Virus record (IMG/VR): IMGVR_UViG_3300013099_001090
Location: 1 to 37,766 of that record
Length of the DNA stretch: 37,766 nucleotides
Strand: one strand, 5' to 3'
Source of the DNA: a virus
Positions 9,253-37,766 of this stretch are shown piece by piece. The translations under genes and the position numbers were made by a program. The notes under the pieces were generated by a model. It saw nothing but the letters and a program-made list of their open reading frames with translations. It was not told the origin of the DNA and did no database searches. Numbering within the stretch: the first letter of the stretch is position 1; the number at the start of each line of letters is the position of its first letter.

Positions 9253-9266
9253 CAACCCCTCCTCTA

Positions 9267-9281
9267 CACTCTGCTGATAAA
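9267..9281 (-). promoter_or_regulatory. Promoter-like box upstream of the tRNA-like gene
   Basis: Minus-strand TTTATCAGCAGAGTG matches the consensus CCTATCAGCATAGTG at 12 of 15 positions. It lies 14 bases upstream of the tRNA-like gene, so it could drive its transcription. It partly overlaps the left arm of the plus-strand terminator. Confidence 0.4.
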
Positions 9282-9299
9282 CCCTTTGGTGGGTTTTTT
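9279..9299 (+). terminator. Intrinsic terminator of the plus-strand tail/lysis block
   Basis: AAACCC and GGGTTT form a perfect six-base stem with loop TTTGGT, and the descending arm continues into TTTTTT (9294-9299). This fits a rho-independent terminator for plus-strand transcription. It lies just before the 3' end of the convergent metallopeptidase gene. Confidence 0.65.
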
Positions 9300-9306
9300 C
9301 AACACG

Positions 9307-10102: not shown

Positions 10103-10111
10103 AGTATAGCA
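10103..10111 (-). promoter_or_regulatory. Extended -10 promoter for the metallopeptidase gene
   Basis: The minus strand reads TGCTATACT, an extended -10 element (TGn plus TATACT). The hexamer ends seven bases before the ATG at 10095, so transcription would start at or next to the start codon. No matching -35 is seen. A GC-rich hairpin (GGTGC-GCAA-GCACC) lies a little upstream and may end the previous transcript. Confidence 0.45.
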
Positions 10112-10155
10112 AAAAGGCTTTGGGCAGGTGCTTGCGCACCCACCCTGCCTTCTGT

Positions 10156-12551: not shown

Positions 12552-13125
12552 CTCTTCGAGGCTTGCTGGAGCCCTTAGATTTCCCCACGTTGTCCTCCCG
12601 CTGCTGCTGCTGGAACTCCAGCTCTCGCAGGGTGACGTTGCGGGACAGGGCCGCAGCCATGTCTCGATATGCCTTGTACAGGGACTCGACGATCTCCTTC
12701 ATCATGAAGAGTTTCAGGTGCTCGATGTAGTACTCGGTGTAGACCGGGTGGATCTCCAGCTGAGCACTGATGTGTGTCTCCTTCACCCCTTCGGCTCGAA
12801 GCTCGTTCTTGATTGTCGCGGCGACTCTCTTCAGGTTTCCTCGGGCAGCCCTCTCCAAGGAGATCACTTCAGCCAGGCGGCTGCTGAGGTACACGGAGTA
12901 CGCCACGTACTGGGTATGCAGGGCCCCCAGTTCTCGGTTGTCGATGGTAACGACATCCACGTTGGCGATGGGTTCAGGCTCGACCTTTGGTGCGGGCATC
13001 TCCTTTACTCCCAAGTCCTTGAGCATCTTATGCTTCACTTCGTCGAGCATGTCGTAGGCGGACTGGGCCCCGGCTTGGAGGGCTCCATCATCTACGACAC
13101 CTGCTTTACTGAGGTCCAGGCTCAT
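12520..13125 (-). CDS. Helical hypothetical protein with basic tail
   Basis: 201 residues from ATG 13125, which overlaps the upstream stop (ATGA). Most of the chain is helical, with heptad-like stretches (SRLAEVISLERAARGNLKRV and EIVESLYKAYRDMAAALSRN), and the last ~25 residues are strongly basic (KSKGSSKPRRGG). The layout suggests a DNA-binding accessory factor. Its position between a Cas4-like exonuclease and a RusA-like resolvase suggests a recombination role, such as a mediator or annealing partner, but no known family was recognised. Confidence 0.55.
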   Translation of the reverse strand: MSLDLSKAGVVDDGALQAGAQSAYDMLDEVKHKMLKDLGVKEMPAPKVEPEPIANVDVVTIDNRELGALHTQYVAYSVYLSSRLAEVISLERAARGNLKRVAATIKNELRAEGVKETHISAQLEIHPVYTEYYIEHLKLFMMKEIVESLYKAYRDMAAALSRNVTLRELEFQQQQREDNVGKSKGSSKPRRGGKPFSGRRG

Positions 13126-15928: not shown

Positions 15929-17917
15929 CTAGTGACAGTCGCTCCAGCGATAGCCTATGTCCCCATCGGGTGGGATCGGGACGGGGTATGTGAGGTCAAT
16001 AGGACCCCAGTGCAACGGGTCAGCCATGTGGTCGTGCATCAGGTCGCTCGTGTCAGCCGCAAGGGCCTTCGGAGCTTCCATGACCAGCTCATCGTGGACC
16101 GTCAGCGTGAGGTAGCTGCCCATCTCCTCAAGCAGGGGGTCCGCATCGATGCGAAGCATGGCCAACTTGACCAGCTCTGCTGCGGAACCCTGAACCGAGG
16201 TGTTGTATGCCTGCCGTTCCTCTTCGGCGACCAACCAGTTCGAGAACTCGTTGTTGATCTTGTACATGCGGCGCTTCCGCCCAAGCATCGTGTACGTGTA
16301 CTCGAACACATGAGCGAACTCATGCATGAACGCGATGTTCTCTTCGATGTCGGGGTAGGTGTTGAAGAACTGGTCCTTCAACTTGTAGGCGGCGTTGAGA
16401 GAGATCCCGAGTTGGGATGCCATCTTACGGGCACCCTCACCGAACAGGGCGCCCAGGCCGACTGCCTTGGACTCCTGCCGTTTGATCAGCAGGTGGCGCT
16501 CTTCCTGGGTGAGGTCCTCCTTGTGCTTCCCCTTCGCTGCCGCGATGGCATCGTAGTCGAGCCCAAACATGTTGGCGGTGTTGGCGTTGTGGATGTCCCA
16601 GCCCTTGCGGATCGCCTCCATCATCCGCGTGTCACCAGCGTTCACTGCTGCCACTCGGAACTCGATCTGAGGGTAATCCTTATCGACCAGCCAGTTACCT
16701 GGGCTTGGGATGAAGGCTCCTCGGATCTTGTAGGGATCGGAGTCAGGTCGAGGCATGTTCTGGAGGTTGGGGTTACCGGAGGAGAAGCGCCCGGTCCGCG
16801 CTACGAACTGCTTGAAGTCCGTGTGCAGTTTCCCATCGGGGCCCAGGAGCCTGGTGATCCCCTTGACGTATGTCTTGTGGAGCTTGGCAAGCTTGCGGTG
16901 CTCCTGAAGCTTCACTAGGTACCGGGCAGCAGTGCGGCCGGGTTCCATGCGGTCGAGGAGGATCTCGATCGACTTCTCATCGGTCGAGGCCTTCGCACCC
17001 TTCGCGCTCTTCGTGTAGCGTCCGGCCTTCAGTCCGAAGCGGTCATCATCGTAGAGGACCCTCCTGACTTGGTCGTGGCTGTTGGGGTTGTGGCTATATC
17101 CAGCTAGGTCACTCAGCTCCTTCTCCAAGGCGCGGATACCATCACGCATGGGTTCGTCGATCGCCTTCAGGTAATCGGCGTCGATGTTTGCCCCGCGGCG
17201 CTCCATCTTGAAGAGCACTCGGGTGAGCGGAGCCTCGATGACCTTGAAGTAATCCAGCAAGGTGCCGAAGCCTGGTGCGACCTCAGTGCCCAGCTCTTCG
17301 GAAGCCAGGGCAGCGTTGTGCTGCTCCCACAGCATGTAGGTGAAGAAGGCATCGCAGGATGCGTATTCAACCACCATGTGGGGGTCTTCTTTGTAGACGT
17401 GCAGGAGCTTCTCCCCTGTGTTCATCGCCTTGAACTTCCGAGCCATGTCCTTGTCCATCCCCAGGACTTGGCTGACGATGACGGGGTCGAGGAAGAGCTG
17501 CTTGAAGTCACCCCACTTGGCCTCGTACTGAAGCCAGGACTGTTCCTTGAGGCCGTGTCGACGGGTGTCGTCGAGCAGGCAGTCTTGGATGAAGATGTCT
17601 TCACACTGGCCGGTAAGGTTGATCCCCATGTTCTTGAGGAGGTGCATGTCGTACTTGGCGTTGGCCAACGCCCAGGTGACATCCGACCGTGCGAACAGAG
17701 GGTCGAAGAAGGGGAGCATCTTCGCTGGAAAGCACCAGCGAGAATCCTCAGTAGCCATGGACCAAAAGAGCACCTCATCCCTCTGGCGATCGAGGCCAGT
17801 GGTTTCGGTGTCAATGGCGACTGTGCCCCCACGCTTCATCAGCATGTCGATGATGGGGACACAGTCGGCCGGGGTTTCGGCCATGACTGAGGGCGGTAGT
17901 AACCTCAGCCTAGGCAT
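15929..17917 (-). CDS. polA: DNA polymerase A family (exonuclease plus polymerase)
   Basis: 662 residues, lacking the 5' nuclease domain of bacterial Pol I. The proofreading domain has IDTETTG (Asp36, Glu38), NAKYD (Asp90) and YASCD (Tyr185, Asp189), so all exonuclease motifs are present. Polymerase motif A is DYPQIEFR (Asp414, Glu419), motif B is RQESKAVGLGALFG (Arg480, Lys484), and motif C is HDE (608-610). The residue equivalent to E. coli Phe762 is Leu488 and that of Tyr766 is Phe492. It is the likely replicative polymerase, next to SSB-like, primase and helicase genes. The start has no clear ribosome-binding site; ATG 17884 is a possible alternative. Confidence 0.93.
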   Translation of the reverse strand: MPRLRLLPPSVMAETPADCVPIIDMLMKRGGTVAIDTETTGLDRQRDEVLFWSMATEDSRWCFPAKMLPFFDPLFARSDVTWALANAKYDMHLLKNMGINLTGQCEDIFIQDCLLDDTRRHGLKEQSWLQYEAKWGDFKQLFLDPVIVSQVLGMDKDMARKFKAMNTGEKLLHVYKEDPHMVVEYASCDAFFTYMLWEQHNAALASEELGTEVAPGFGTLLDYFKVIEAPLTRVLFKMERRGANIDADYLKAIDEPMRDGIRALEKELSDLAGYSHNPNSHDQVRRVLYDDDRFGLKAGRYTKSAKGAKASTDEKSIEILLDRMEPGRTAARYLVKLQEHRKLAKLHKTYVKGITRLLGPDGKLHTDFKQFVARTGRFSSGNPNLQNMPRPDSDPYKIRGAFIPSPGNWLVDKDYPQIEFRVAAVNAGDTRMMEAIRKGWDIHNANTANMFGLDYDAIAAAKGKHKEDLTQEERHLLIKRQESKAVGLGALFGEGARKMASQLGISLNAAYKLKDQFFNTYPDIEENIAFMHEFAHVFEYTYTMLGRKRRMYKINNEFSNWLVAEEERQAYNTSVQGSAAELVKLAMLRIDADPLLEEMGSYLTLTVHDELVMEAPKALAADTSDLMHDHMADPLHWGPIDLTYPVPIPPDGDIGYRWSDCH

Positions 17918-24906: not shown

Positions 24907-26304
24907 CTATTTCTGTACGATCTTGAATGGGATTTGCCCGCCCTTGTGTGCAGGCCATCGGTTGAAGGTGGCTCGGATTTTCTGGCACATCTTGAACAGG
25001 GGCTTGATGTACATGTCTTCGTAGATGATGAACAGGGGGTCCCTCTTCCCTCGGAAGTTTCTGAGGGCACGGCCCATGATCTGCTGGAGCACGTTGGGCT
25101 TCTTGGTGGGTTCACAGATATACACGGTGTCGAGCGAGGGCTTGTCCAAGGCTTGCTTCCCGATCTGCATGATGGCGATCACCGGGTTGCACTCATGGAT
25201 GCGCCGCATCCGTTCCTTACCCTTGACCCCTGCGTAGACGACCCCAGGATTGGTGAAGTGCTCGGCCAACTTCTCACACATGGCTCGGCTGTGTGTGAGT
25301 ACGAGGCACTGCCTGCCCATCGCGATGCCTGCCTTGATGTCGTTGGCTATGGTCTCGGTGCGTTCGGGCTTGCTCTCGGCCAAGTAGTTGTAGGTCTTGC
25401 CGAAGTGAAACTCTCTTGAGATGTCGTGGGTCTCCCGGAACACATCGGGTTGGGTGGTGTCCAGCCGGGTATCCAGCCGACGAAAGATCGCTGTCGGTTT
25501 CAGGTCCGGGGTCAGGTAGGTGTAGGTGATCTCACCCACGGTGGCCCTAAGCAAAGAATCGAACCCATCATCTCGCTCCGGCGTAGCCGACAGCCCCCAC
25601 CGTCGCCCATGGAAGGGGGGGAGTGCCTTGTTGAAGTATGGCGCCGCCATCACGTGCGCTTCGTCTGGGATGATGACCCCGAAGTGCCGGACCATCTCCG
25701 GAGGGATCCGGCGGTCGATGGCTCGCTGTGCTAGGGATTGTACCAAAGCAATAGTGATGGGCTTCTCCCAGACGAAGGGGGAACCATCGCCCCCGATACG
25801 CCCGATGTCTTCTTCCTTGAGCCCAAGGAACCGACGGATCTCCTTGACCCATTGGTTGGCCAGGGTCTTCTCGTTCACGATGATCAGGATGGGCTGCTTC
25901 ACCTGCGCTGCTGCATGGAGAGCGACGACGGTCTTCCCTGCCCCACACCGGAGGCAAAGAATCCCGTCGTAAGTTCCGAGCAGAGCCTTGCAACTATCCC
26001 GCTGATAGGTCGCAGATGGTTCCTTTGCATCCATGATTGCGCTGCTGCGCAGGTCGATTCGAGGGAAGTCCAGGAACCGAGTGTCCCGTACGGGGTACGG
26101 GAGATTCGTGAGGGTGAGGACCTCGTAGTAGTTCCGAGGCACCCGGAAGTGATAAGGCTCCTCCTCCCAGCCCCTGATGATCTCTCGATCTCTCCCCTCG
26201 TAGATGAGAGACATCTGGATCTGCCTCTCGCTTACGTGCTGCTTGGGGAGCCAGAGCCAGTTGTCGAAGTACCCATAGTCCGGGCGCCTGCGGATTAGTT
26301 TCAC
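24907..26304 (-). CDS. SF2 helicase, XPB/RadD/UvsW-like
   Basis: 465 residues from a GTG overlapping the upstream stop. Motifs: a Q-like ATYQRDS (98-104), motif I CGAGKT (120-125), motif II DEAH (214-217), motif III SATPER (239-244) and motif VI QQIMGRALR (407-415). The layout with a ~95-residue N-terminal region matches phage UvsW and bacterial RadD/XPB-type DNA translocases, which remodel branched DNA, unwind R-loops or help restart replication. Early position in the operon suggests action near the start of replication or repair. Confidence 0.88.
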   Translation of the reverse strand: MKLIRRRPDYGYFDNWLWLPKQHVSERQIQMSLIYEGRDREIIRGWEEEPYHFRVPRNYYEVLTLTNLPYPVRDTRFLDFPRIDLRSSAIMDAKEPSATYQRDSCKALLGTYDGILCLRCGAGKTVVALHAAAQVKQPILIIVNEKTLANQWVKEIRRFLGLKEEDIGRIGGDGSPFVWEKPITIALVQSLAQRAIDRRIPPEMVRHFGVIIPDEAHVMAAPYFNKALPPFHGRRWGLSATPERDDGFDSLLRATVGEITYTYLTPDLKPTAIFRRLDTRLDTTQPDVFRETHDISREFHFGKTYNYLAESKPERTETIANDIKAGIAMGRQCLVLTHSRAMCEKLAEHFTNPGVVYAGVKGKERMRRIHECNPVIAIMQIGKQALDKPSLDTVYICEPTKKPNVLQQIMGRALRNFRGKRDPLFIIYEDMYIKPLFKMCQKIRATFNRWPAHKGGQIPFKIVQK

Positions 26305-26849
26305 TCGGGGTGGTCCTCGTCACGGGGTGGTGGTCGGAAGGGGAAGAAGTCTACGTTCTCCGCCATCTCTTTGCCCTGGTGGAACACGGCGTGGAACATG
26401 GCTTGGAAAACGTTCTTGAAGATCCTGGAGACCAGGCTCTCCCCTCGGTCAGGAAGGAACGTTGGGCTCGGTCGGTACGCTCCCCCCTCTAGTCGGGCCG
26501 TCTTGAGATGAGCGTGGTCGTCATCGGGGTATACCACCGTCGCCGAGGGTGAGGGGGCCTTCCTGATTGCTTCCTGCCTGGATGTGTCCTGCCTGGTCGG
26601 GAGAGTGGTTCGCCCAAACCCTGATCTGGTAGAGGCCAGAACATGAGAATCGTCCCCCCTTTCTCTTCTGTGGGTGGTCAGGCGGCACCTCATTCGAGAT
26701 GGGCACGCCTGCCACCGGTAACCCTCGTAGCTCCCACCATTACATAGGTTCGAGAACTCCGAGGACCCTGGGTCCTCATACTCGGACCAGGTATCACAGT
26801 TCTTGAGATCACCATGTGGGCTCTTGGCAGAGCCTACAACTGCGGTCAT
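26301..26849 (-). CDS. Hypothetical protein, first gene of the replication operon
   Basis: 182 residues from ATG 26849, which has AGGAGG five bases upstream. Four Cys lie in the N-terminal third (NCDTWSEYED, NLCNGG, ACPSRMRCR), a spacing that could hold a zinc or Fe-S site. The middle is polar and unstructured, and the C-terminus has helical SRIFKNVFQAMFHAVFHQ and a Pro-rich end. The start is 20 bases from the promoter-like box, so it is the first protein of the 16-kb unit. The family is not recognised. An early regulatory or host-directed role is only a guess. Confidence 0.55.
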   Translation of the reverse strand: MTAVVGSAKSPHGDLKNCDTWSEYEDPGSSEFSNLCNGGSYEGYRWQACPSRMRCRLTTHRRERGDDSHVLASTRSGFGRTTLPTRQDTSRQEAIRKAPSPSATVVYPDDDHAHLKTARLEGGAYRPSPTFLPDRGESLVSRIFKNVFQAMFHAVFHQGKEMAENVDFFPFRPPPRDEDHPE

Positions 26850-26868
26850 GCTTGCCTCCTTTTCTATA

Positions 26869-26883
26869 CACTATGCTGATAGG
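26869..26883 (-). promoter_or_regulatory. Promoter-like box of the 16-kb minus-strand replication operon
   Basis: Minus-strand CCTATCAGCATAGTG is identical to the consensus drawn from four sites. It lies 20 bases before the ATG of the first operon gene, with only TATAGAAAAGGAGGCAAGC between them. No TTGACA-like -35 is visible on this strand. It is divergent to the plus-strand promoter at 26889. Confidence 0.55.
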
Positions 26884-26888
26884 CCGGA

Positions 26889-26918
26889 TTGACCGTTCGT
26901 CTCTGCCAGAAGTATCCT
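26889..26918 (+). promoter_or_regulatory. Sigma70-like promoter giving a leaderless head-gene mRNA
   Basis: TTGACC (26889-26894), an 18-base spacer and TATCCT (26913-26918) form a -35/-10 pair. The -10 ends six bases before the ATG at 26925, so transcription should begin at or next to the start codon. The promoter before the RpoB-like gene has the same geometry. Confidence 0.5.
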
Positions 26919-26924
26919 TGGCGA

Positions 26925-28334
26925 ATGCAGAACGCTGGCGTAATCCTCGACGTCTATGACGACTCCAAGGGGCTCGTCCTCCGAGAGAAGCTCGCGGGAC
27001 AAAACCTCCCACCCCAACTAGCTCAAGCGCAGCTCCTGTCTCGGGAGAAGCTCGCGTCTCTTCCGGATCGGCTCTTCGCTCTGGTTGCCTATGATGGTGC
27101 CCAGGTCATGCGCAAGTACGCCGTGCATGATGGGGGGCACTGCGCCACGTCCATCGTCTACTTCCTGGAGTGCGGGCACCTCCTTCCGGAGGAGGCTCAG
27201 AAGGTGGCGGCTGTCAACCTGGTGAATGCCTGCGCGTGGTACGACATCGATCCCCCCGAGCCTCTCGTCAAGGTAGCCTTGATTGGGAAGGCCCTGAACG
27301 CAGGGATGCTGGGACTCCAGGCCAAGGGCTCAGCCGACCAGGCTATGGGGGGTTTCGGCAAGGTGAAGTCGGACATGAACCAGTACCGCCAGATTCAGGC
27401 GACTGCTCAGGTCCCCGCCGAGGGGAGCCACATCGACAAGCAGGCTGACCTCACCGGCACCGAGATGATGCCGATGTCGGGGGTCACCACCAAGCCCCTG
27501 AGGTCTCAGAAGAACACAGCTGCCAAACCTCAGTCGGGCTTCGTGGGTCCGAAGGTGTCGAGCCAGGAGTGGTTCGGACCCATCGATATCACAGGGCTCA
27601 GCGCCCCCGTGGAAACCTACGAGGCGGCCAGCGAGCACCACTGTCTCCCAGGGCGCTATCCGATCGACAGCTACGGACAGGTGAAGCAGGCCGAGGCCTA
27701 TTTCGAGGAGCACTACCACACGCTCGACCTCCCGGACCGCAGGACATACGCCTTCAACTTGGTTGGTCGCGCCAATGATTTGGGGGTCAAGGTAGCTGGT
27801 ACGGTCCTCGATTATGCGGGCCACCGTTTGGGGAGGCACCTCCCGTCCGAGCTGCTGAAGCGGGCTTCGACCTACCGGGAGCACGATGCCGGCCGAATCT
27901 ACGAGGAGCTTCAGACCAAGGTAGCCTCCATGGCTCCCGATGACGTGGTCCGGGCCCTGCACTTGGCTGACTCTGCCTCCGGGGCGGCGCACGCCTACGG
28001 GAAACCTGTGGTAGGGTTCCGTGATCCATTCGCCGCAGTCTTTGGGGTGAAGGTGGCCAAGGAGCAGATCACGGGGGAAGACGATGCGTCGGACCACGCG
28101 GATCATGAGGCGGCAGCGGAGTTCGTCTGGAACCGGGGTTCGGACTATGTGACTGGGGATCAACTCCGGTTCATGGCCAACCGCAACGAAGAGTTGGATG
28201 GCGTTCTAGGAGAAGGCTTTTCAAAAGAGTACAGCAAGGATCCCGTGGGAACGTTCAAAGCCCTACCAGATCCCCAGAAACATGTGCTAGCAAGACTAGC
28301 TTCCGACAACAGTGGCGGAAGCTCCCGGCAGTAG
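26925..28334 (+). CDS. Putative virion/head-module protein
   Basis: 469 residues from ATG 26925; a TTG at 26889 is in frame but lies in the -35 element. No Shine-Dalgarno is visible before the ATG. The N-terminal domain (~residues 1-130) is compact, with RKYAVHDGGHCATSIVYF and helical segments (LPEEAQKVAAVNLVNACAWY). A polar linker follows (~150-210), then a second domain with GRYPIDSYGQVKQAEAYFEE and DLPDRRTYAFNLV. The C-terminus is charged and flexible. It begins the plus-strand module that ends with the portal, so a capsid, scaffold or internal head role is likely. No family is certain. Confidence 0.5.
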   Translation: MQNAGVILDVYDDSKGLVLREKLAGQNLPPQLAQAQLLSREKLASLPDRLFALVAYDGAQVMRKYAVHDGGHCATSIVYFLECGHLLPEEAQKVAAVNLVNACAWYDIDPPEPLVKVALIGKALNAGMLGLQAKGSADQAMGGFGKVKSDMNQYRQIQATAQVPAEGSHIDKQADLTGTEMMPMSGVTTKPLRSQKNTAAKPQSGFVGPKVSSQEWFGPIDITGLSAPVETYEAASEHHCLPGRYPIDSYGQVKQAEAYFEEHYHTLDLPDRRTYAFNLVGRANDLGVKVAGTVLDYAGHRLGRHLPSELLKRASTYREHDAGRIYEELQTKVASMAPDDVVRALHLADSASGAAHAYGKPVVGFRDPFAAVFGVKVAKEQITGEDDASDHADHEAAAEFVWNRGSDYVTGDQLRFMANRNEELDGVLGEGFSKEYSKDPVGTFKALPDPQKHVLARLASDNSGGSSRQ

Positions 28335-28356
28335 CCGGAGAGGAGACGAGACGATC

Positions 28357-29067
28357 ATGGGAGATTCCAATCTGTTCGGGGCCAAGGGTCCTCGACTTCA
28401 GCACCTCGTACGGGGTGCTGGCGGCCTGGCTGGAGAGATCAATGATCTTCGAGCTGACATCGATGAGGCGTTCGGGGACATGGAGTCCAGCGGGGGCTAC
28501 CTGGTCACGGAGGAGTTCGTCGACCCGCCCTTGGCAGACGTCGATGCCATCAAGACGGCTGAGGCATCGGCCGCGGCAGAGCAGGTCTTCGTCGCCGTCG
28601 ACCTCGATGGTGCTGTCGGAAACGCTGAGATGGTTCCCCCTCGGAACCTCTCCATCACGACCACGGCCTCTGGGGACATCGATGCCGTGGATGTGGTCAT
28701 TACCGGCCGGGTTCGTGATCGCACTGGTGCGCTCATCGCCCAGACGGAGACCATCACTCTCACCGCAGATGCTGGTGCGACGGACCTGGGCGCTCTGGCC
28801 TTCTCCATCGTGGACACCATCACCATCCCCGCCCAGACGGGTACGGGAGGCACGGTGGCCTTCGGCTTCGGCGCGATCATCGGCATGGCCAACCCCATGA
28901 AGACGCTCGCCGGACTCCTCGCCCCCACGCAGGAGATCGCAGTGGGTGTCGTTGTGACCACGGGCACCTTCGTGGACGCAGCGACGGCCACCCCCAACGG
29001 AACGTACGAGCCGGCGGCGGCGCCGGACGCTGCCAACGACTACGCGATCACCTACCTCGTCGACTGA
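28357..29067 (+). CDS. Putative beta-rich head/decoration protein
   Basis: 236 residues from ATG 28357, with GGAGAGGAG about eleven bases upstream. After a helical N-terminus (~1-50) the protein has repeating Thr/Ala/Val/Gly beta strands (NLSITTTASGDIDAVDVVIT, then TLTADAGATD and ITIPAQTGTGGTVAFGFG). A high Thr/Ala/Gly content with few charged residues is typical of abundant phage structural proteins such as head decoration or tail tube proteins. Its position three genes before the portal supports a head role. The exact role is not shown. Confidence 0.5.
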   Translation: MGDSNLFGAKGPRLQHLVRGAGGLAGEINDLRADIDEAFGDMESSGGYLVTEEFVDPPLADVDAIKTAEASAAAEQVFVAVDLDGAVGNAEMVPPRNLSITTTASGDIDAVDVVITGRVRDRTGALIAQTETITLTADAGATDLGALAFSIVDTITIPAQTGTGGTVAFGFGAIIGMANPMKTLAGLLAPTQEIAVGVVVTTGTFVDAATATPNGTYEPAAAPDAANDYAITYLVD

Positions 29068-29072
29068 GGCTA

Positions 29073-30035
29073 GTGGACGACCTGCTGGAGCAGGGGATGC
29101 GGGTGTGGCCTCTACCGGGGCCCTCCGCAGTCCCCTTTGAGAAGGAAGCTTCGAGGGGGCCTCAGGAGTCCCCCGAAGCATCCATTCAAAACATCCTCCA
29201 GGAGATTCAATCTCAGATGCCGAGCTGGGTGCTACCCGCAGGCATTGATAAGGTTGCAGCTCAGCGGTTTGGCACCGACGACGAGCTGCCTCCGGTGACC
29301 AAGAAGAACATCTGGCGTCACCCCAACGCGCACCCGCTCGTCCTCGTCCTCCTCTTGCTCGACAAGTATGGCAAGGAGTACATGGACTGGGACTCCGAGG
29401 TTGTGCGCGAGACCCTCCGGAAGGATGGGATCCTGATCTCCAATAGCGTCTGGACTAAGATCCAAGCTGTTCGAGTTCTCCTCAGCGTGCCTTCACCCTG
29501 GAGGCAGTGGGAGGTGTTCCATTGGATCACCCAAGGCATCAATGGGGAGCCACCGAACTTCGTCTACATGGAGGAGCCTCAGCTCGGCCACATGGCTGTC
29601 GCCGTCGACATCATGAACATCATTGACAAGGGTCGGGACTTCGGGGAAGACATCGACAAGCTCACGGCGGTCGTCTTCAAGGAGGCTGGGGTCGCTTATG
29701 CGCCCGCCCCCCTGGACTTCGCTCAACGAGAGCTGGACGATCCCAAGATCATCTGCGCAGACTGCAAGGCTGAGGATCGAGACGACGACGATGTGAAGTG
29801 TGTGGCCTGTGGATCGATCAACCTCAAGCGTCTCCCAGGAGACCATGACGATCTGAGGGACGCCATCAAGCGAGAGTTCGCCAAGAGAAAGGACCTTCCC
29901 TTGGAACAGGCTGAGAGAGGTCTTGAAGAAGATGCGGTTGGCGTGTCTACTCTACGTCTCCTGGCCCACTGGGACTTTCGCAATCAAGTCAGGGCTCAGC
30001 TCATACGTCAGCTCCGTTCAATCGCATCTTCGTAG
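29073..30035 (+). CDS. Hypothetical head-module protein with zinc ribbon
   Basis: 320 residues from a GTG at 29073, five bases after the previous stop, with GAGG just upstream. The N-terminal ~210 residues are helical, with Trp-rich parts (SVPSPWRQWEVFHWITQG). A zinc ribbon follows: CADC and CVAC separated by a run of Asp (EDRDDDDVK). The C-terminus is charged and helical (REFAKRKDLPLEQAERGLEE). The portal two genes on also carries a Cys-pair insertion. A packaging or head-assembly role is possible from context; the family is unknown. Confidence 0.5.
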   Translation: MDDLLEQGMRVWPLPGPSAVPFEKEASRGPQESPEASIQNILQEIQSQMPSWVLPAGIDKVAAQRFGTDDELPPVTKKNIWRHPNAHPLVLVLLLLDKYGKEYMDWDSEVVRETLRKDGILISNSVWTKIQAVRVLLSVPSPWRQWEVFHWITQGINGEPPNFVYMEEPQLGHMAVAVDIMNIIDKGRDFGEDIDKLTAVVFKEAGVAYAPAPLDFAQRELDDPKIICADCKAEDRDDDDVKCVACGSINLKRLPGDHDDLRDAIKREFAKRKDLPLEQAERGLEEDAVGVSTLRLLAHWDFRNQVRAQLIRQLRSIASS

Positions 30036-30055
30036 AGTTCGCAGTAAGGTGAGGC

Positions 30056-31033
30056 ATGGCCGACCGGTTTCAGATATATCCGATGAGCGAAGCGGTCCAC
30101 CAAGGGATTGAGAAGCGAGCCCTCAACATGGGTACCGCCGTGAGCACCGCGCGTAGCGGTGCCGGTACCTTGGCGCGCAGGCTCCTGAAGTCCCCCTCTT
30201 CTGCGGCGGCGGTAGGTGCTGCGGGCGGTGCGGCGATAGGTGGTGGGCGAGAGGCTCTCCGTAAGAAGGAGCCCGGGGAGGGTGGCCACCTCCTTCGGAG
30301 TACCCTTCGCGGTGCTGGCGCTGGTGCTGCCCTCGGCGGCGGTCTAGCGGCTGGCGCAGGGGCTGTCCGGGATACGAGGCTCCTTCAGGCCGCCAAGGGG
30401 GACAAGTCCACCGTGGCTGCTGGCATCAAGGGTACGGTGGGTCGAGCTGCGAAGGGCGTCCAGCAGTTCGGTAAGCGGCAGATCCACGGGGTGACTGGGA
30501 AGTTCAAGGACTCCCTCACCGATGGTCTCAAGGGGAAGGTCCACCTGGAGAAGCTCCGCATTCGAGACGAGCTGAAGCATGTTGCGGACCCTGCTCAACG
30601 CAAAGAGTTGTTGAAGCAGTACAAGGGGACACGCCGCGGCCTAGCTACCGAACTCAAGTCTCAGAACAAGGCCGTCGCGGCGGGGATCACCAGCGTTCCC
30701 GGAGTGCTCAAGGGGATGGCGACGAGCCCCCTACAAACCTCCAAAGCTATGTGGGATCGAGGGACAGGCGGAGGATCGAAAGCCGGCCTGGCCTTCGGTC
30801 TTGGTGTACCCCTAGCCATGGCCGCCCCAGATCTGGCCAAGGGAGATGAGAGTGGTACGGGGGGCGCTTCGATGAAGCAGAAGCTCGTACGTCACGGAGG
30901 CATGGTGACGACTGGGATGCTCACTGGTGGTCTACCGATCATTCCAGGGATGATTGCTCAAGAGGCGGCCAGCAAGGGCATCGCCCGAGCCTCGCACGAC
31001 CCCGGGTCCCCTCACGCTAAGAAGGCTGAATGA
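30056..31033 (+). CDS. Gly/Ala-rich basic protein with hydrophobic helices, possible internal virion protein
   Basis: 325 residues from ATG 30056 with AAGGTGAGG upstream. The protein alternates very small-residue hydrophobic helices (SAAAVGAAGGAAIGG; GAGAGAALGGGLAAGAGAV) with strongly basic, amphipathic stretches (GKRQIHGVTGKFKDSL; KGTRRGLATELKSQNK). Near the C-terminus another Gly/Ala helix precedes GGMVTTGMLTGGLPIIPGM. Such composition fits membrane-penetrating ejection proteins or pore-like internal virion proteins. The stop overlaps the portal start (ATGA), so the two are co-translated. The role is inferred from composition and position only. Confidence 0.5.
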   Translation: MADRFQIYPMSEAVHQGIEKRALNMGTAVSTARSGAGTLARRLLKSPSSAAAVGAAGGAAIGGGREALRKKEPGEGGHLLRSTLRGAGAGAALGGGLAAGAGAVRDTRLLQAAKGDKSTVAAGIKGTVGRAAKGVQQFGKRQIHGVTGKFKDSLTDGLKGKVHLEKLRIRDELKHVADPAQRKELLKQYKGTRRGLATELKSQNKAVAAGITSVPGVLKGMATSPLQTSKAMWDRGTGGGSKAGLAFGLGVPLAMAAPDLAKGDESGTGGASMKQKLVRHGGMVTTGMLTGGLPIIPGMIAQEAASKGIARASHDPGSPHAKKAE

Positions 31034-32922
31034 CATTTTTCGGTTCAGGTGGCTCACGCTCCGCCCAGTTTAGCCAGTCAGCCAGTAAGCAGGACATCCT
31101 GGGGCGAAAGTACGCCCCGTTTGCCAACCCCTTCTTCGATCAGGCGAGTACCTACACACCGCCTTCGGTCAAGTCGCTCTTCAGCTTCTGCCGCTTCTAC
31201 CACCTGACTCATGGTGTCATCAACGCGATCGGAACCAAGGCGGCCGAGTACCCGGTCACCGACCTGATCATCCAGCACAAGTCGAACAGCGTAGCCAACA
31301 AGTGGAAGGAGCTGATGCTGGGAGACCTGAACTATCGGGTCCACCAGTTCGAGGTGAACCTCGACTATTTTGTCTATGGCAACGCCTTCGTCAGCCCCAG
31401 CTTCCCCTTCCGCAAGAAGATCATCTGCAAGTCGTGCAACGCTGAGAACGACGCCATCAACACCCGGAACAGCTGGCGGTACACCAACCACCGCTTCTGG
31501 CTGACGTGTCCGAAGTGTGGGCAGAGTGACTTCGCCAAGAGCAGGGACGACTACTACGCCAAGCCCTCAGAGATTGGGCTCATCCGGTGGAACCCTGAGA
31601 ACGTCACCATCTTCTACAACGAGTCGACGGGTCGGCTCGACTATGCACTCGACCTCTCCACGCAGTTCCGCAGTGAGATTGCCATGGGTCGGAAGGACCT
31701 GGTGTCCACCACTCCGGAGATCTTCCTTTCGGCGGCCAAGTCCAAGAGGATGTTGGTCTTCGACAAGCGGGAAGTCTTCCACATGCGGAGGCCTGCACTA
31801 TCGAGCATGAACCGGGGGTGGGGCCCACCTTTGATCATGCCGGTGCTGAAGGACGCCTTCTACATGCAGATCATGAAGAAGGCGCAAGAGCAGGTGCTCC
31901 TTACCCACCTGCTACCCCAGGTCTTCCTCTACCCCCAGCCTGCTACGTCGGGGGCCGACCCCTTCACCACGGTCAACCTCAAGGACTGGCGCTCGCACAT
32001 CCAGCGTGAGTTGACACGACAGCGCCTCGACCCGAGTTACTATGGCATCCTTCCCTTCCCCATGGGTCACCAGATCATTGGGGAGAACGGCCGCTCTCTC
32101 CTGATGATGCAGGAGATTCGGATGATGGGTGAGCTGATCGCCATCGGGATGGGCTTCCCGGCCGACCTCGTCTTCGGGCAGGGGACCTACGCAGGGTCCA
32201 GTGTCTCGATGCGTATGCTGGAGAACTTCTTCCTGTCCAACGTGCAGAGTCAGTACCGGCTCCTCCACTGGTACATGAAGAGGATCGGCGCCTTCCTGAA
32301 CTGGCCGGTGGCCCAGGGACGCTTCAAGCCCTTCAAGATGGCTGATGATCTCCAGCGCCAGGCCTTTGCCTTCCAGCTCAACCAGGCTCAGAAGATCTCG
32401 GATACATCCCTCCTCTCCTTGGCAGACTTCAAGGTCGAGGACGAGTCGGAGCTTCAGGTGTCGGAGTCCTCACTCCGGATGGAGGCACTCAAGAAGCAGT
32501 CGCTCCTCCTGGCTGAAGTCCAGGGTGAGGCAGGGGTGACTTCTGCTCGATTCCAGGCCAAGGCCCAAGAGGTCATGATGGAAGCCGAGCGGCAGGCTCA
32601 GCAGGCTGCTCAGGATGCTGCCAACGCTGCCGGAGAGGGCGAAGGCGGGCCGGAAGGTGACTCCTTCACCCAGTCCCAGGGGTCTGAACTCTCGGGGCCC
32701 ACAGGTCTCCCCATGAACCAGGTGGCCCAAGGACTTGCGAGTCAGCTTCAAGGCATGCCTCCGGAGATCCAGCAGCAGCAACTGGCCCAGCTCAAGAAGA
32801 CCCAGCCCGAGATGGCCGAGCTAGTACAGCAAAATATTATTTCACCAGCCTCGCAACCGGCAGGAGTCGACACTCGACCCCTACCGGAAAAGCTTCCGCC
32901 GCGAAGAGACTCCTTGAGTTAG
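31030..32922 (+). CDS. Portal protein with an inserted zinc ribbon
   Basis: 630 residues. The order fits a portal: an N-terminal flexible arm, a wing with SVKSLFSFCRFYHLTHGVIN, a long core with repeated short strands (SEIGLIRWNPENVTIFYN; KREVFHMRRPAL), then helices with MRMLENFFLSNVQSQYRLL of the stem/clip type, and a Gln/Glu/Ala-rich helical C-terminus like the portal barrel. Four Cys (133, 136, 160, 163; CKSC and CPKC) form a zinc ribbon within the N-terminal domain, which is unusual. It forms the dodecameric ring through which DNA enters and leaves the head. The 3' end overlaps the convergent gene by four bases. Confidence 0.72.
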   Translation: MTFFGSGGSRSAQFSQSASKQDILGRKYAPFANPFFDQASTYTPPSVKSLFSFCRFYHLTHGVINAIGTKAAEYPVTDLIIQHKSNSVANKWKELMLGDLNYRVHQFEVNLDYFVYGNAFVSPSFPFRKKIICKSCNAENDAINTRNSWRYTNHRFWLTCPKCGQSDFAKSRDDYYAKPSEIGLIRWNPENVTIFYNESTGRLDYALDLSTQFRSEIAMGRKDLVSTTPEIFLSAAKSKRMLVFDKREVFHMRRPALSSMNRGWGPPLIMPVLKDAFYMQIMKKAQEQVLLTHLLPQVFLYPQPATSGADPFTTVNLKDWRSHIQRELTRQRLDPSYYGILPFPMGHQIIGENGRSLLMMQEIRMMGELIAIGMGFPADLVFGQGTYAGSSVSMRMLENFFLSNVQSQYRLLHWYMKRIGAFLNWPVAQGRFKPFKMADDLQRQAFAFQLNQAQKISDTSLLSLADFKVEDESELQVSESSLRMEALKKQSLLLAEVQGEAGVTSARFQAKAQEVMMEAERQAQQAAQDAANAAGEGEGGPEGDSFTQSQGSELSGPTGLPMNQVAQGLASQLQGMPPEIQQQQLAQLKKTQPEMAELVQQNIISPASQPAGVDTRPLPEKLPPRRDSLS

Positions 32923-34250
32923 ATGTGTTTGGGGATCTTCTTCAAGAAGGTCTGCATCAGCTCCCAAGCTGGGAACGTTTCTCCGACCTTCTTCAGGTGA
33001 GGCTCCTCTCTGGTGAGGAGCAGGAAGGCTAGCTGGTCTCGGGTAACCCCCGCGGCCAGCACCTCGTCCCGAAAGGCTCGGGCTGCCATGTACTGCTTGA
33101 TGACTGGGCGAATGAAGAACTCCCAGTCCCCGTCGTTCTGAGGTGGTGCGGTCCCGTCCTCGATACCCCTCCGCTTTGGGTGGTTGGTGAGCATCTCTCT
33201 GTGGACCTCCCGGTAGTCCGGTTTGCTGAGGGCCGACACAGTCTTCGGGATGACCTTGCTACGATGATGGTCGGCCAAAGGCTTGACGATCTCCCAGGGT
33301 AGCTCCCAAAGGAACTGAGCTAGTCCTGGTCCAGAGAGTCGGGTTAGATCTTCAAGCTCCAAGGGTCGTGCAACCCAAGGCGCCAGAGCCTCCAAGATGT
33401 TCGGCGTCATCAACCTCCCCAGCCCTTGGCGGAAGAGGTCATCATCACAAGCCCTCACTACTCCCAGAGCTTTGCGCGACCCTCTGGCCTGCGAGACGTA
33501 CGAGATAAAGAACCGCTCGGAGCATAGGCGTAATGCGAGAGCCAGCGCTGCATAAGGGATCCGAGCCTTGCTTTCGTTCCGCACATAGGACTCAGCCAGC
33601 CTCTGAGCTGAGTGACTCCATCGATCCCTGTGAAGCACGTTCATGCCCTGAAGGAACTTGAGGTTGTTGCGGTGCCCATTACAGGATACCCGCAGCACCT
33701 CAGCCGTGGTGCTTGCGTCCAACCAACTCAGCTGGCGGAACCCATAGCGCCACTCCCCCGAGTCGAGGTGGTAGGGCTCGGCGTCAAACATCTCGGGCGA
33801 CGTCGGGTTCATCCAGTCCAGCTGGGAGCTATAGAACTCAGCCTCACCGAGAATGGTGTGGCTCTTCCATCGGTGCCCCCGAAGCTGTTCCAGTAGGGTT
33901 TCCCCTTCCTTCCGATCTCCCCAGAGCATGTGGCCACAGGCTAGGTTCAGCGGTGAGTCCGTACCCGAACCTCCCAGCCGACTCATCAGGAGGGGTTCCA
34001 TCACAGAGATGTCCCGACCCAATGCCAGCATGTCTCCGATGGAGATCTCCGGATGGGGCGCATCCTCTCCGCTCTTGCCCCCCGCATGGTGGAGCCTAGC
34101 CATAGCCTCCTGGCCATAGACGAAGAGCATGGTGTGCCACATCTCGTAGAAGCTTTCTCGAAGGGCACTGGAGACGTAGGCGTGAGGGGCGGAGGTCCTT
34201 ACCCGTTCGAGGATGATCTGGTCGGTCAGCTCTTCGGAAAGATCTACCAT
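32919..34250 (-). CDS. Third component of the MoxR/vWA module, unknown fold
   Basis: 443 residues from ATG 34250, which overlaps the end of the metallopeptidase-vWA gene; an upstream start at 34280 has no ribosome-binding site. The protein is mostly helical, with many Trp and His residues and a basic middle. No Walker, protease or nuclease motif is seen. It always follows, on the same strand, the MoxR and vWA genes, so it is a candidate VMAP-like partner or substrate-recognition protein of that pair. The 3' end overlaps the portal gene by four bases. Function remains unknown. Confidence 0.55.
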   Translation of the reverse strand: MVDLSEELTDQIILERVRTSAPHAYVSSALRESFYEMWHTMLFVYGQEAMARLHHAGGKSGEDAPHPEISIGDMLALGRDISVMEPLLMSRLGGSGTDSPLNLACGHMLWGDRKEGETLLEQLRGHRWKSHTILGEAEFYSSQLDWMNPTSPEMFDAEPYHLDSGEWRYGFRQLSWLDASTTAEVLRVSCNGHRNNLKFLQGMNVLHRDRWSHSAQRLAESYVRNESKARIPYAALALALRLCSERFFISYVSQARGSRKALGVVRACDDDLFRQGLGRLMTPNILEALAPWVARPLELEDLTRLSGPGLAQFLWELPWEIVKPLADHHRSKVIPKTVSALSKPDYREVHREMLTNHPKRRGIEDGTAPPQNDGDWEFFIRPVIKQYMAARAFRDEVLAAGVTRDQLAFLLLTREEPHLKKVGETFPAWELMQTFLKKIPKHI

Positions 34251-35518
34251 GCGATGTCCATGATGAAGTTGGTACCCCACTCTTGTTTACGGCCGCCCAG
34301 AGGGACACACCAGATGGTCTTCCGGTGCAGCGGCTTGACCACTGGCGGAAGCTCGATGAAGCCATCGGTTAGGATGGCGAGGGCAGTGGGCTTGATCTTA
34401 TCGACCATCTCGAAGACCTCTATCACTGAGGTATAGGAGTGCCCACCTTGCTTATACTTGAACTTACGTTGGATCTCCTGCGGTCGGCGGGTAGTGAAGT
34501 GCTCCCGGACGACTGCGTCGAATCCCACGATGTGTATGCGGTCTGCTCGTCGAGCGGCCGGCATGATGGCTGCCTTGAACTCGTCGTGTAGCTCTTCCCC
34601 GACCGACGCAGAGTTGTCGATTGCCAGGAATAGCACCTTCTCCTGCACCCCCTTGTAGCTGGGGAGGATGAGGAGAGGGTAGAGCCTCTTTCGAGGAGGG
34701 CTGAAGGTCGCTATGTCGTCGCCGACATCACAGAGAAGCTTCCCTGTGAGCAGGCGGCTCCACGGTATACGTCCTTCCTTTATCTTGGAGAGTCGCTCGG
34801 TGATTGCCCCGGGGAGGGGGCGGGCCGTCGGGTTCATCTCCATGACTGCTTGGGCCTGACAGATCTCTTCAGTGATGCCGTCCTGCCAGTCGTGCTTCTC
34901 TTCCTCCGACTCGAAGGGGGATGGGAGTAGGTCGCTCCCTGAGAACTCCCCCTCCATGTTGTTGTCGTAGGGGTCCTCGCTGGTCATGGTGCTCGGGCCA
35001 CCTTGAGCCGCCGTCAGTGTGGGTACCCCCTGAGGTTGCGGCATAGGCTGGTTGGCCTTCTTCCGCTTCATCAGTTCTTCGTAGACCTTCTCAGCTGTCT
35101 CGAACAACTCCCAACCCTTCGGGTTGATCCCATCTGCTGGGGTCTTCCACGTGTCCCGATCTGTACTGAGGATCTCCTCGGTGAGACGGTTGGTGATGAT
35201 GTCGATCGCTATGTTCCACACCTTGAAGTCTCGGTGCTTCGCTCGGTCGACATGGTTGAAGTAGATGTGGAGGTACTCATGGCAGACGCGGAAGACCACC
35301 CCACGGAGGCCCTCCTTCTCGTTCACTGCCTTGATGTAGTCGGGGTTGATCCAGATGTTGGCCCCATCCGTAGCCAACGTCTGGACCTGTAGGTCCTGCT
35401 GCACCTTGATGTATTGCCCCAAGATGAGGAGCCCACCCATGGGCCACCGAAGAACGAAGTCTTGGCAACCCTTATAGATGATCTTGTGTGCTGCCTCGTC
35501 AGGCCCCGCTAGTAGCAT
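34244..35518 (-). CDS. DUF2201-type metallopeptidase with vWA domain
   Basis: 424 residues from ATG 35518. The N-terminal domain has CHEYLHIYFNH, in which HEYLH (80-84) is a zinc HExxH motif, followed by NIAIDIITNR with Asp106 as a possible further ligand. A flexible Pro/Gln/Glu linker (about 155-210) leads to a C-terminal von Willebrand A-type domain with the MIDAS motif DNSAS (301-305) and LTDG (Asp385). This combination is typical of DUF2201-like proteins, which pair with MoxR ATPases. The MoxR gene is directly upstream with a 20-base overlap, so the two should act as a remodelling or protease pair. Confidence 0.82.
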   Translation of the reverse strand: MLLAGPDEAAHKIIYKGCQDFVLRWPMGGLLILGQYIKVQQDLQVQTLATDGANIWINPDYIKAVNEKEGLRGVVFRVCHEYLHIYFNHVDRAKHRDFKVWNIAIDIITNRLTEEILSTDRDTWKTPADGINPKGWELFETAEKVYEELMKRKKANQPMPQPQGVPTLTAAQGGPSTMTSEDPYDNNMEGEFSGSDLLPSPFESEEEKHDWQDGITEEICQAQAVMEMNPTARPLPGAITERLSKIKEGRIPWSRLLTGKLLCDVGDDIATFSPPRKRLYPLLILPSYKGVQEKVLFLAIDNSASVGEELHDEFKAAIMPAARRADRIHIVGFDAVVREHFTTRRPQEIQRKFKYKQGGHSYTSVIEVFEMVDKIKPTALAILTDGFIELPPVVKPLHRKTIWCVPLGGRKQEWGTNFIMDIAW

Positions 35519-36719
35519 TGTCGTCCTCGTCGACTAGGTCCTTCATGAGTACGTCGACTGCCTCGGGGTAGTGCCTGGCCAACGCTGCCTGCTTCTTCGA
35601 GGGGATCTGAACAAGGAGGGCGATACGGAACTCCCCCTTCAGAGATTCAGCGAAGGGCTTGAGCCCATCCCACCCCTTCTCGATCTTTGCCTTGGTGATG
35701 TGACGTGCCACCGCGAAGATGCATGCGTACTGGAACATGGTCGCATCCTCACCCGAGGGCATGGTGGCGACACCTGTCTTCAGGATCTCATCGATGTTCA
35801 CCTTCCGGAGGATCTCCCACCAGGCATTCCACTGCCTCATGACACCCACCCCGCACTTGCGTTCGATGATGCCGTCACGCCGCCTGTTCCACTCCCTCAA
35901 CTCATCCTTCTTGGAAGGGTTGGGGTCTGGGAGATGGAAGAAGTGCTGACTCACCTCCCACCAACCACGAGGGGAGGGTGCCCTGTAGGCTCCCTCCTCG
36001 ATGGGTGAGAAGAGCAGGTCTCTGTTGCCGGGAACCTCAAGGAACATGAGGACGTCCTTGTGGATCTGAGTGGGATTCTCTACCGCGTACTTCCTGAAGT
36101 CCTCGAACTTCGCTTCCATCGTGATGACGGTTACACGACCCAGGATCGACTGCGATAGATCACCTGCCAGGATGTCATCACCCACACGGTTGCCCGCGCA
36201 CATGATCAGCGAGAGGGGGTGGAGCTTGTAGTCCCGGTAGTTCCGAGTACCGAAGAGACCGATCAATCCCTTTTGCACCGAGTCCGGTGCCTTGTCGAAA
36301 TCATCGAAGAGCTGAAGGACGGGGGAGACGATTGCCTCCCACGCCACTTTGTTCACTGCCCAGATGATACGCTCGACCCTCTCCTCGGATGCATTCTGCG
36401 AGAGACCCTGCCTCTTCATGGCCTCTTCCCAATCCTTCAGGGCAGTGCCGCTGAGTTCGGTGGCCAGGTCTGGACGACCAAGGGTGAGGAGTCCCGCAGG
36501 AACGGGAGTCCCCGTCACGTCTGTGGGGTCTGCGTTGTCCCCGATGTTCACCGGGCGGTAGGTGACAACACCATCTAGGATGGCAGCCTCAACCCCGAGG
36601 TCTGACTTGCCGATACCCGGTGGCCCAAAGACCGCAGGGATGTTCAGCTTCTGTGCTTTGCGTTGGATCGCGAACTCTTCCATCACGATCTGCAACGTCT
36701 CTTGGAATCCGTACGCCAC
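35499..36719 (-). CDS. MoxR-type AAA+ ATPase
   Basis: 406 residues from a GTG at 36719, which overlaps the upstream stop (TAGTG). Walker A is GPPGIGKS (32-39), Walker B is LQLFDDFDKAP (with Asp139/Asp140, not the usual DE), and sensor 1 is around LIMCAGNR (Asn177). The layout fits MoxR AAA+ chaperones, which work with vWA proteins to insert metals, remodel or activate partner proteins. The metallo-vWA gene follows at once. MoxR-vWA pairs act in host stress and conflict systems; here they are phage-encoded. Confidence 0.85.
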   Translation of the reverse strand: MAYGFQETLQIVMEEFAIQRKAQKLNIPAVFGPPGIGKSDLGVEAAILDGVVTYRPVNIGDNADPTDVTGTPVPAGLLTLGRPDLATELSGTALKDWEEAMKRQGLSQNASEERVERIIWAVNKVAWEAIVSPVLQLFDDFDKAPDSVQKGLIGLFGTRNYRDYKLHPLSLIMCAGNRVGDDILAGDLSQSILGRVTVITMEAKFEDFRKYAVENPTQIHKDVLMFLEVPGNRDLLFSPIEEGAYRAPSPRGWWEVSQHFFHLPDPNPSKKDELREWNRRRDGIIERKCGVGVMRQWNAWWEILRKVNIDEILKTGVATMPSGEDATMFQYACIFAVARHITKAKIEKGWDGLKPFAESLKGEFRIALLVQIPSKKQAALARHYPEAVDVLMKDLVDEDDNATSGA

Positions 36720-37036
36720 TAACCCGTACCTTCGATCATGTCTTCTCCATCCCACTCGATCTCTTCACAGTGGGTCGCCTGCTCGTAGCAGTCCTTGTGG
36801 TTATGTATGGTGGGTCGTCCCTCCTCATCGGGAAGGATCGCTAACCTCCCTCCGGGAAGCTCCACCACGGTCAACTCGCTACTCGGATCGAGTATGAACA
36901 CCGCAGCATCTAGGTCTTGAAGCCACACCCACTGCCCCCTCAGCCCTACATAGGCATCCTGGAGATCACTCGGGTCTGTCACCATCACATCTATCGGGTC
37001 GCCACATATCTGGCAGACCACACTATCTGTCACCAC
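36719..37036 (-). CDS. Small Cys/His protein leading the MoxR operon
   Basis: 105 residues from a GTG at 37036, five bases after GGAG; a TTG at 37057 is possible but lacks a ribosome-binding site. A Cys pair CQIC near the N-terminus and HNHKDCYEQATHC near the C-terminus could bind zinc. The middle is beta-rich and acidic (AVFILDPSSELTVVELPGG). It overlaps both neighbours. It may be a small adaptor or substrate of the MoxR/vWA pair; no family is recognised. Confidence 0.55.
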   Translation of the reverse strand: MVTDSVVCQICGDPIDVMVTDPSDLQDAYVGLRGQWVWLQDLDAAVFILDPSSELTVVELPGGRLAILPDEEGRPTIHNHKDCYEQATHCEEIEWDGEDMIEGTG

Positions 37037-37133
37037 TCCGTCTCCGTTGAAGCTCAAAGGTCAGGGCCGCTGAGACCTCCAGGGTCCCTGCGATAAAGCC
37101 CGCCAGAAAGGCGTAGCCAAACACTGAGAGCAT
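37023..37133 (-). CDS. Tiny single-helix membrane protein (36 aa)
   Basis: The ATG at 37133 overlaps the stop of the acidic peptide gene (TGATG). The product starts with one hydrophobic helix (LSVFGYAFLAGFIAGTL) and ends in a positive cluster (LQRRRSGDR), so it should insert in the membrane with a cytoplasmic C-terminus. It ends inside the following Cys/His gene. It may be a membrane anchor or a toxin-like peptide; no function can be given. Size makes the gene call uncertain. Confidence 0.4.
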   Translation of the reverse strand: MLSVFGYAFLAGFIAGTLEVSAALTFELQRRRSGDR

Positions 37134-37246
37134 CAGTCTTGGCCTTCTTCCTCATCGCTATCCATGACGTCGTCGGTGATGTCATCGACACCGCTCTCGT
37201 AGTCGGTGATGGAATCGTCTTGGTCATCCGTGTCGGGATCATGCAT
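37133..37246 (-). CDS. Tiny acidic peptide (37 aa)
   Basis: ATG 37246 follows GGAGGAGAGAG in the leader of the box at 37262-37276. The 37 residues are almost all acidic or polar (DPDTDDQDDSITDYES, then SDEEEEGQD). Highly acidic small phage proteins often act as DNA mimics that inhibit DNA-binding host enzymes. It is the first gene of the MoxR/vWA operon. The reading is supported by ribosome-binding site, promoter box and stop/start overlap with the next gene; the role is a guess. Confidence 0.45.
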   Translation of the reverse strand: MHDPDTDDQDDSITDYESGVDDITDDVMDSDEEEGQD

Positions 37247-37261
37247 GTTTTCTCTCTCCTC

Positions 37262-37276
37262 CAGTTTACTGATAGG
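37262..37276 (-). promoter_or_regulatory. Promoter-like box of the MoxR/vWA operon
   Basis: Minus-strand CCTATCAGTAAACTG matches the CCTATCAGCATAGTG consensus at 12 of 15 positions. It lies directly upstream of the leader of the acidic peptide gene and is divergent to the RpoB-like gene. Confidence 0.48.
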
Positions 37277-37292
37277 CTCTTACCGACCTGCA

Positions 37293-37322
37293 TTGACCCG
37301 CTTCCGAAGCACCACGTAAACT
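37293..37322 (+). promoter_or_regulatory. Sigma70-like promoter giving a leaderless RpoB-like mRNA
   Basis: TTGACC (37293-37298), an 18-base spacer and TAAACT (37317-37322) are followed by six bases and the GTG at 37329. The geometry is identical to that of the promoter at 26889-26918. No Shine-Dalgarno precedes the GTG. Confidence 0.5.
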
Positions 37323-37328
37323 CCAGCT

Positions 37329-37766
37329 GTGCTGAACACGAACCCACAGGAACAGTTTGAAGAGCTGAAAGGCCAGCTCCTCAGCCAAGTACGGGATACG
37401 TTTCCGATCCAGGACTCGAAGGGTCGGTTCGAGGTCCGGGTAAAGAACCTCAAGGTCAAAGACAACCAGGGTGTCGATGACATCCGAGGGCAGCTTCAGT
37501 CACGCCTCAAGGGGAAGACCTGGGCAGCCCCCGTCTTCGCCACTGTCGAGATCGTCGACTCCAAGGGGAAGGTCCTCGTCTCCAAACCCAACACCCGCAT
37601 CGCTGAGATACCCAGGCTGACGCGGCACTACTCCTACATCGTGGATGGTAAGGAGAAGATGGTCGCCAACCAGTGGCGGCTGAAGTCTGGGGCGTACGTC
37701 AAGGAGACCCAGAAGGAGGGGGAGTACGAGGCGCAGTTCCAGCTCGCCAAGGGCAAGAGCTTCGAC
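37329..37766 (+). CDS. RNA polymerase beta (RpoB)-like subunit, N-terminal part (3' partial)
   Basis: From GTG 37329, the first start after an in-frame stop at 37317, 146 codons run to the window edge. The order of segments matches the N-terminal region of bacterial beta: RDTFPIQDSKGRFEVRV (E. coli: FPIQSYSGNSELQY), SRLKGKTWAAPVFATVEIVD (RGVTYSAPLRVKLRLVIY), then RIAEIPRLTRHYSYIVDGKE ([20 protein letters not shown]), VANQWRLKSGAYVK (VSQLHRSPGVFF) and a probable strand near the edge. It is clearly RpoB-like but very divergent and shortened, as in phage multisubunit polymerases of the phiKZ/AR9 type. The E. coli segments are recalled from memory. It may transcribe phage genes from the special boxes seen here. 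Confidence 0.75.
   Translation, partial: MLNTNPQEQFEELKGQLLSQVRDTFPIQDSKGRFEVRVKNLKVKDNQGVDDIRGQLQSRLKGKTWAAPVFATVEIVDSKGKVLVSKPNTRIAEIPRLTRHYSYIVDGKEKMVANQWRLKSGAYVKETQKEGEYEAQFQLAKGKSFD

Follow-up and report, generated by a model that had tools for sequence, protein, structure and literature searches.

Two intergenic regions of the window (the whole stretch of viral DNA analysed, 37,766 nucleotides of the IMG/VR record IMGVR_UViG_3300013099_001090) carry nearly the same promoter-like arrangement directly before a start codon, which raises the question of whether transcription of the two genes begins at the start codon itself, and of which polymerase would read such sites.

Two Predicted Leaderless Promoters

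An earlier note had described the two regions as matched leaderless promoters, and the shared layout, TTGACC-18-TAnnCT-6-start, was found to be right to the base, with the two sites lying 10,404 bases apart. The first site (26889–26927, plus strand) heads the portal operon and consists of TTGACC (−35 element, 26889–26894), an 18-base spacer and TATCCT (−10 element, 26913–26918), followed by the six bases TGGCGA and an ATG at 26925. The second (37293–37331, plus strand) precedes the RNA polymerase gene and consists of TTGACC (37293–37298), again 18 bases, TAAACT (37317–37322; TAGACT in most relatives), the six bases CCAGCT and a GTG at 37329. Inspection of the sequence bore out that a usable Shine-Dalgarno sequence is missing before both starts. 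Both sites have a sigma70-type layout, TTGACC-18-TANNNT, agreeing with the consensus at 9 of 12 positions. Sigma70 promoters start transcription about seven bases past the −10 element, which corresponds here to the first base of the start codon. In both genes, TANNNT was found to end six or seven bases ahead of the start codon, with no Shine-Dalgarno sequence; this agrees with the published leaderless signature, in which TANNNT lies some 12 bp ahead of the start or leaves a gap of 6–7 bp (PMC3160421, PMC12340547). The two sites are, with high probability, sigma70-type promoters giving mRNAs that begin on the start codon or one base away from it, and both genes are very probably leaderless.

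A scan of positions 26301–37766 with the sigma70 −35/−10 consensus returned exactly these two sites, with 2.5 expected from shuffled sequences; a generic promoter match is by itself no proof and is not significant, and it is position and conservation that carry the case. On both strands of the window, no TTGAC-16 to 19-TANNNT pair was present beyond these two. With the spacer varied from 10 to 26 bases, a length of 18 gave two to three matches per record, and no other length gave more than one.

Conservation in the Phage Clade and Contrast outside It

Relatives were found through a scan of viral contigs with the DNA polymerase of the polA gene, which returned polymerases 52–61% identical, the largest contigs encoding them being 160–172 kb, and more distant ones at 32–36% identity; the portal-operon gene alone as the query gave no relatives among viral contigs. 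The window, a virus record of 37.8 kb, may be a fragment. In the close relatives, the pattern TTGACN-17 to 20-TANNNT-5 to 8-RTG falls precisely on the starts of the orthologues of both genes in every record that has them. Only two further matches lie elsewhere in these records, and the reversed pattern, used as a control, gave none there. Strict matches numbered exactly two per record, at these two genes, in the window and in the relatives G001, G003, G004 and G012. Protein scans with both genes yielded 16 RNA polymerase loci and 15 portal-operon loci in the clade, some of them near-copies, and all (16/16 and 15/15) have TTGACC, an 18-base spacer, TANNNT and 5–7 bases to the start. These loci, window included, represent 13 distinct promoter sequences for the RNA polymerase gene and 12 for the portal operon. 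TTGACC is kept in 100% of them, as are the initial TA and the final T of the −10 element, with a mean spacer identity of 39% and 43%, respectively. The distance from the −10 element to the start in the portal operon is six bases in 8 and seven bases in 4 of the 12 distinct sequences. The RNA polymerase promoter of the clade combines TARACT with GTG, and the portal-operon promoter TANNNT with ATG. Alternative in-frame starts were ruled out by the frame limits of close relatives, in which the frame of the RNA polymerase gene opens only nine bases 5' of the GTG, so that no earlier start of this gene is possible. A third site, TTGACC-18-TACCAT-6-ATG, was seen in G001 near a one-gene rightward unit (L051:18486–18524; G001 138486).

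A tree of 48 proteins of the portal-operon gene, midpoint-rooted, with leader labels assigned by a simple rule and no direction of change implied, placed the TTGACC leaderless form in one clade with 100/100 support. The other 36 rows comprise 29 with a Shine-Dalgarno leader, 6 with only a −10 element at six or seven bases and 1 with neither; the six orthologues with a −10 element alone indicate that a leaderless start does not depend on TTGACC. In some of the outgroup members, a TTGAC/TANNNT pair is present, with a leader of about 25–30 bases containing a Shine-Dalgarno sequence after it. The same gene, predicted to start without a leader in this clade and to have a Shine-Dalgarno leader in most relatives, would provide a natural comparison of initiation-mode switching.

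A Genome-Wide Predicted Leaderless Class

The earlier note had proposed that the same spacing be counted at other gene starts. In the window and three relatives, 44 genes have TANNNT exactly six bases ahead of an in-frame start, whereas other distances average 7 genes (Poisson 6e-21); these genome-wide counts are approximate, with gene calls from an in-house script. The reversed control AGNNTA gave 0 at the six-base distance. A Shine-Dalgarno sequence was present at 18% of the TANNNT-six-base starts versus 58% of the remaining starts, and reciprocal best hits indicated that the leaderless arrangement is kept at several other genes. The prediction of leaderless mRNAs for the two genes is well supported by the conserved spacing in about 25 distinct promoters, and it is also backed by the genome-wide six-base peak, by the Shine-Dalgarno depletion at those starts and by the finding that most orthologues from outside the clade have Shine-Dalgarno leaders. 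The class makes up about 6% of called genes, mostly with a −10 element only, the two sites being its members with a consensus −35 element. Its genes are larger, with at least 300 residues in 21 of 44, versus 4 of 37 genes of the CTATMAG class described below (p 6e-4).

The metallopeptidase gene (9307–10095), which encodes an HEFVH-containing protein, had been called similar to the two sites. Its extended −10 element, TGCTATACT (TGC-TATACT, 10103–10111, minus strand), does lie seven bases before the ATG at 10095, but a −35 match is missing, and the gene gave no reciprocal hit or orthologue in the compared genomes. The site is only consistent with the general leaderless class.

A Second Promoter Class, CTATMAG

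Each of the two sites lies beside a divergent leftward operon with a promoter-like motif of another kind, not noticed before. Next to the portal operon, CTATCAG (26876–26882, minus strand) is followed by the Shine-Dalgarno sequence GGAGG (26855–26859, minus strand) of a leftward gene with its ATG at 26849, and next to the RNA polymerase gene, CTATCAG (37269–37275, minus strand) is followed by GGAGGAG (37256–37262, minus strand), with an in-frame ATG at 37242. CTGATAG, or a close variant, was found 5' of every TTGACC of the clade (16/16 and 15/15), and on the other strand it reads CTATMAG, so that CTATMAG and TTGACC promoters stand back-to-back, 4 to 31 bases apart. In the full relatives used for counting (G001, G003 and G004; L045–L071), 19 of 26, 17 of 25 and 24 of 34 CTATMAG copies are intergenic, with p values per genome from 1e-21 to 3e-18. 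The motif usually lies 19–27 bases before a start codon and has no conserved −35 element; of 61 cases, 54 have a Shine-Dalgarno-like sequence after the motif. Besides the divergent leftward operon, it serves about 20 further genes, most of them small; the GyrB gene belongs to this class, and no gene was found with both a leaderless −10 element and CTATMAG. These features make CTATMAG a candidate phage-specific promoter class. In G001, its copies often lie downstream of a hairpin-T stretch, as judged by eye. At the orthologues G004 30142 and G003 72578, located at L055 about 10110–10142 and L066 about 12578–12620, the leaderless −10 element TAGGCT overlaps the complement of CTATCAG (CTGATAGGCT), and the opposite promoters share bases.

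Genes Served by the Two Sites

Each site would head a rightward operon of virion type: the portal gene closes the first operon, and a fused beta-beta' polymerase opens the second, followed, in relatives, by spike-like and terminase-like genes. The first gene of the portal operon (26925–28334, plus strand) encodes 469 aa from the predicted leaderless ATG, and the last (31030–32922, plus strand) encodes the portal protein, with a tblastn match to the portal of Salmonella phage Arash (E 7e-56). The name "first head gene" in the earlier note holds for the operon, as its last gene is the portal gene, but the protein of the first gene resembles no known fold: a model from 48 sequences reached a pLDDT of 82 (a model from six was poor) and gave no PDB fold match, only uncharacterised viral proteins being matched.

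The RNA polymerase gene (37329–37766, plus strand), with its predicted leaderless GTG, runs off the window, which holds the first 146 residues only. It had been called RpoB-like, correctly, the gene of the relatives being a fused beta-beta' RNA polymerase, a single chain of 2059–2076 aa with beta domains followed by beta' domains (Rpb2_6 and Rpb1_2/5) and a DxDGD-type catalytic motif, NGDIDGDTVAL. The best NCBIfam models were PRK09603 and rpoC, all below curated cut-offs. The alignment to bacterial beta' runs through the sigma-binding coiled-coil region, which appears retained, and the fused polymerases at L058:9735–15965 and L046:7191–13370 match cellular beta' with E about 1e-87. In G004, a Gp5/baseplate-like (spike-like) gene lies 3' of the polymerase, with a GpA-type terminase ATPase further on.

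Proposed Mechanism and Alternative Explanations

In the proposed mechanism, the closeness of the −10 element to the gene would put the transcription start on the start codon or one base away from it, and the ribosome would engage the leaderless mRNA at its 5' AUG or GUG. The host sigma70 holoenzyme is the most likely reader of the TTGACC/leaderless class, whereas the phage polymerase, which by analogy is possibly carried in the virion, may read CTATMAG, as the comparison with phage P23-45 and the operon context suggest; the leaderless virion mRNAs would probably be late. Polymerase footprints make back-to-back sites of this kind too close for two polymerases at once, which suggests that the TTGACC and CTATMAG sites are mutually exclusive. 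It is put forward tentatively, as a possibility, that the pairs form a switch coupling promoter class to translation mode, with the phage polymerase at CTATMAG giving Shine-Dalgarno mRNAs and the TTGACC site giving leaderless ones. If so, the leaderless virion mRNAs would include the polymerase's own, and transcription and translation would be redirected together at a late stage.

The reader of the leaderless promoters might instead be the phage beta-beta' polymerase, acting with a specificity factor of host or phage origin, with the polymerase gene autoregulated. The canonical sigma70 layout of the sites and the kept coiled-coil region of beta' agree with this explanation, which we nevertheless consider unlikely, given that searches of three close genomes for sigma70 regions 2 and 4 gave nothing and that CTATMAG, because it is without the sigma70 layout, suits a phage-specific polymerase better. 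Far less probable is that the conserved block is an operator or another protein-binding site, with the true promoters elsewhere and the transcripts leadered. The consensus scan alone, being no better than chance, is compatible with an operator, but the −35 element, the 18-base spacing, the −10 element and the start distance are all kept despite variable spacers, the −10 element alone peaks at six bases genome-wide, and, since the upstream genes are divergent, a rightward promoter would have to lie in the 75–86 intergenic bases or inside the divergent gene. Chance likeness of the two intergenic regions, for which the 2.5 matches expected from the generic scan in 11 kb might speak, is refuted by the equal sites in every close relative, and equal frequency at random positions, named in the earlier note as a ground for rejection, was not seen, the strict pattern occurring in 0 of 400 Markov shuffles of the window and the relaxed pattern 2 times against a shuffle mean of 0.18.

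Comparison with Known Systems

The arrangement, for which sigma70-type promoters at the start codon remain the preferred explanation, is real, but it belongs to a type described before in certain bacteria and phages. In the "TA-led" leaderless genes of Actinobacteria and Deinococcus-Thermus, a gap of six or seven bases separates TANNNT from the start codon (PMC3160421, PMC12340547). The present genes share with them the six- or seven-base gap and the missing Shine-Dalgarno sequence, but differ in belonging to a phage and in having an invariant TTGACC −35 element at two operon heads only. Middle and late mRNAs of the Thermus phage phiYS40 are described in a review as mostly without a leader (PMC3594737), a precedent for leaderless phage mRNAs that were measured there and are predicted here. 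Thermus phage P23-45 has phage polymerases with their own promoter motifs, and its late genes use the host polymerase (PMC10770324). The present phages would likewise pair a polymerase of their own with a separate motif class, but the phage-borne P23-45 polymerases are two-barrel enzymes, whereas here one fused beta-beta' chain is clearly similar to cellular subunits. The jumbo phages phiKZ and AR9 encode relatives of beta and beta' as several separate subunits, and AR9 transcripts have leaders of 26–491 nt, unlike the predicted leaderless mRNAs here (PMC7598289, PMC5312081). The closest cultured polymerase relatives found, at about 28–29% identity, were those of Vibrio phages D69, D181 and D148 and Salmonella phage Arash. 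In these phages, as here, a homologous RNA polymerase adjoins a homologous portal gene, but it is split into two or more ORFs directly 3' of the portal, with no divergent operon in between.

A phage with its own cellular-type RNA polymerase appears to place its polymerase gene and portal operon under predicted leaderless sigma70-type promoters, while a second promoter class with Shine-Dalgarno leaders would serve other genes, a case made at the level of sequence and supported phylogenetically. What deserves following up is the combination with a fused polymerase and another promoter class, and the two motif classes can be used to predict transcription units in these uncultivated phages.

Additional Features

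A scan of a genome collection returned only distant homologues, in contigs assigned to a Candidatus Eisenbacteria MAG and to another MAG, which is too weak a basis for naming a host; contig L180, binned as Candidatus Eisenbacteria, holds a distant homologue of the portal-operon gene and is a weak host lead. The leftward block between the two promoters includes a putative metallopeptidase with a VWA-like domain (DUF2201, 34244–35518). The protein encoded at 23740–24459 matches a stretch of a DNA polymerase family profile (phrog_17) and lies 5.8 kb from the polA gene (15929–17917), which has its own exonuclease domain match. A tRNA-Gln with a TTG anticodon (9180–9253, minus strand) overlaps the rightward ORF at 8998–9702.
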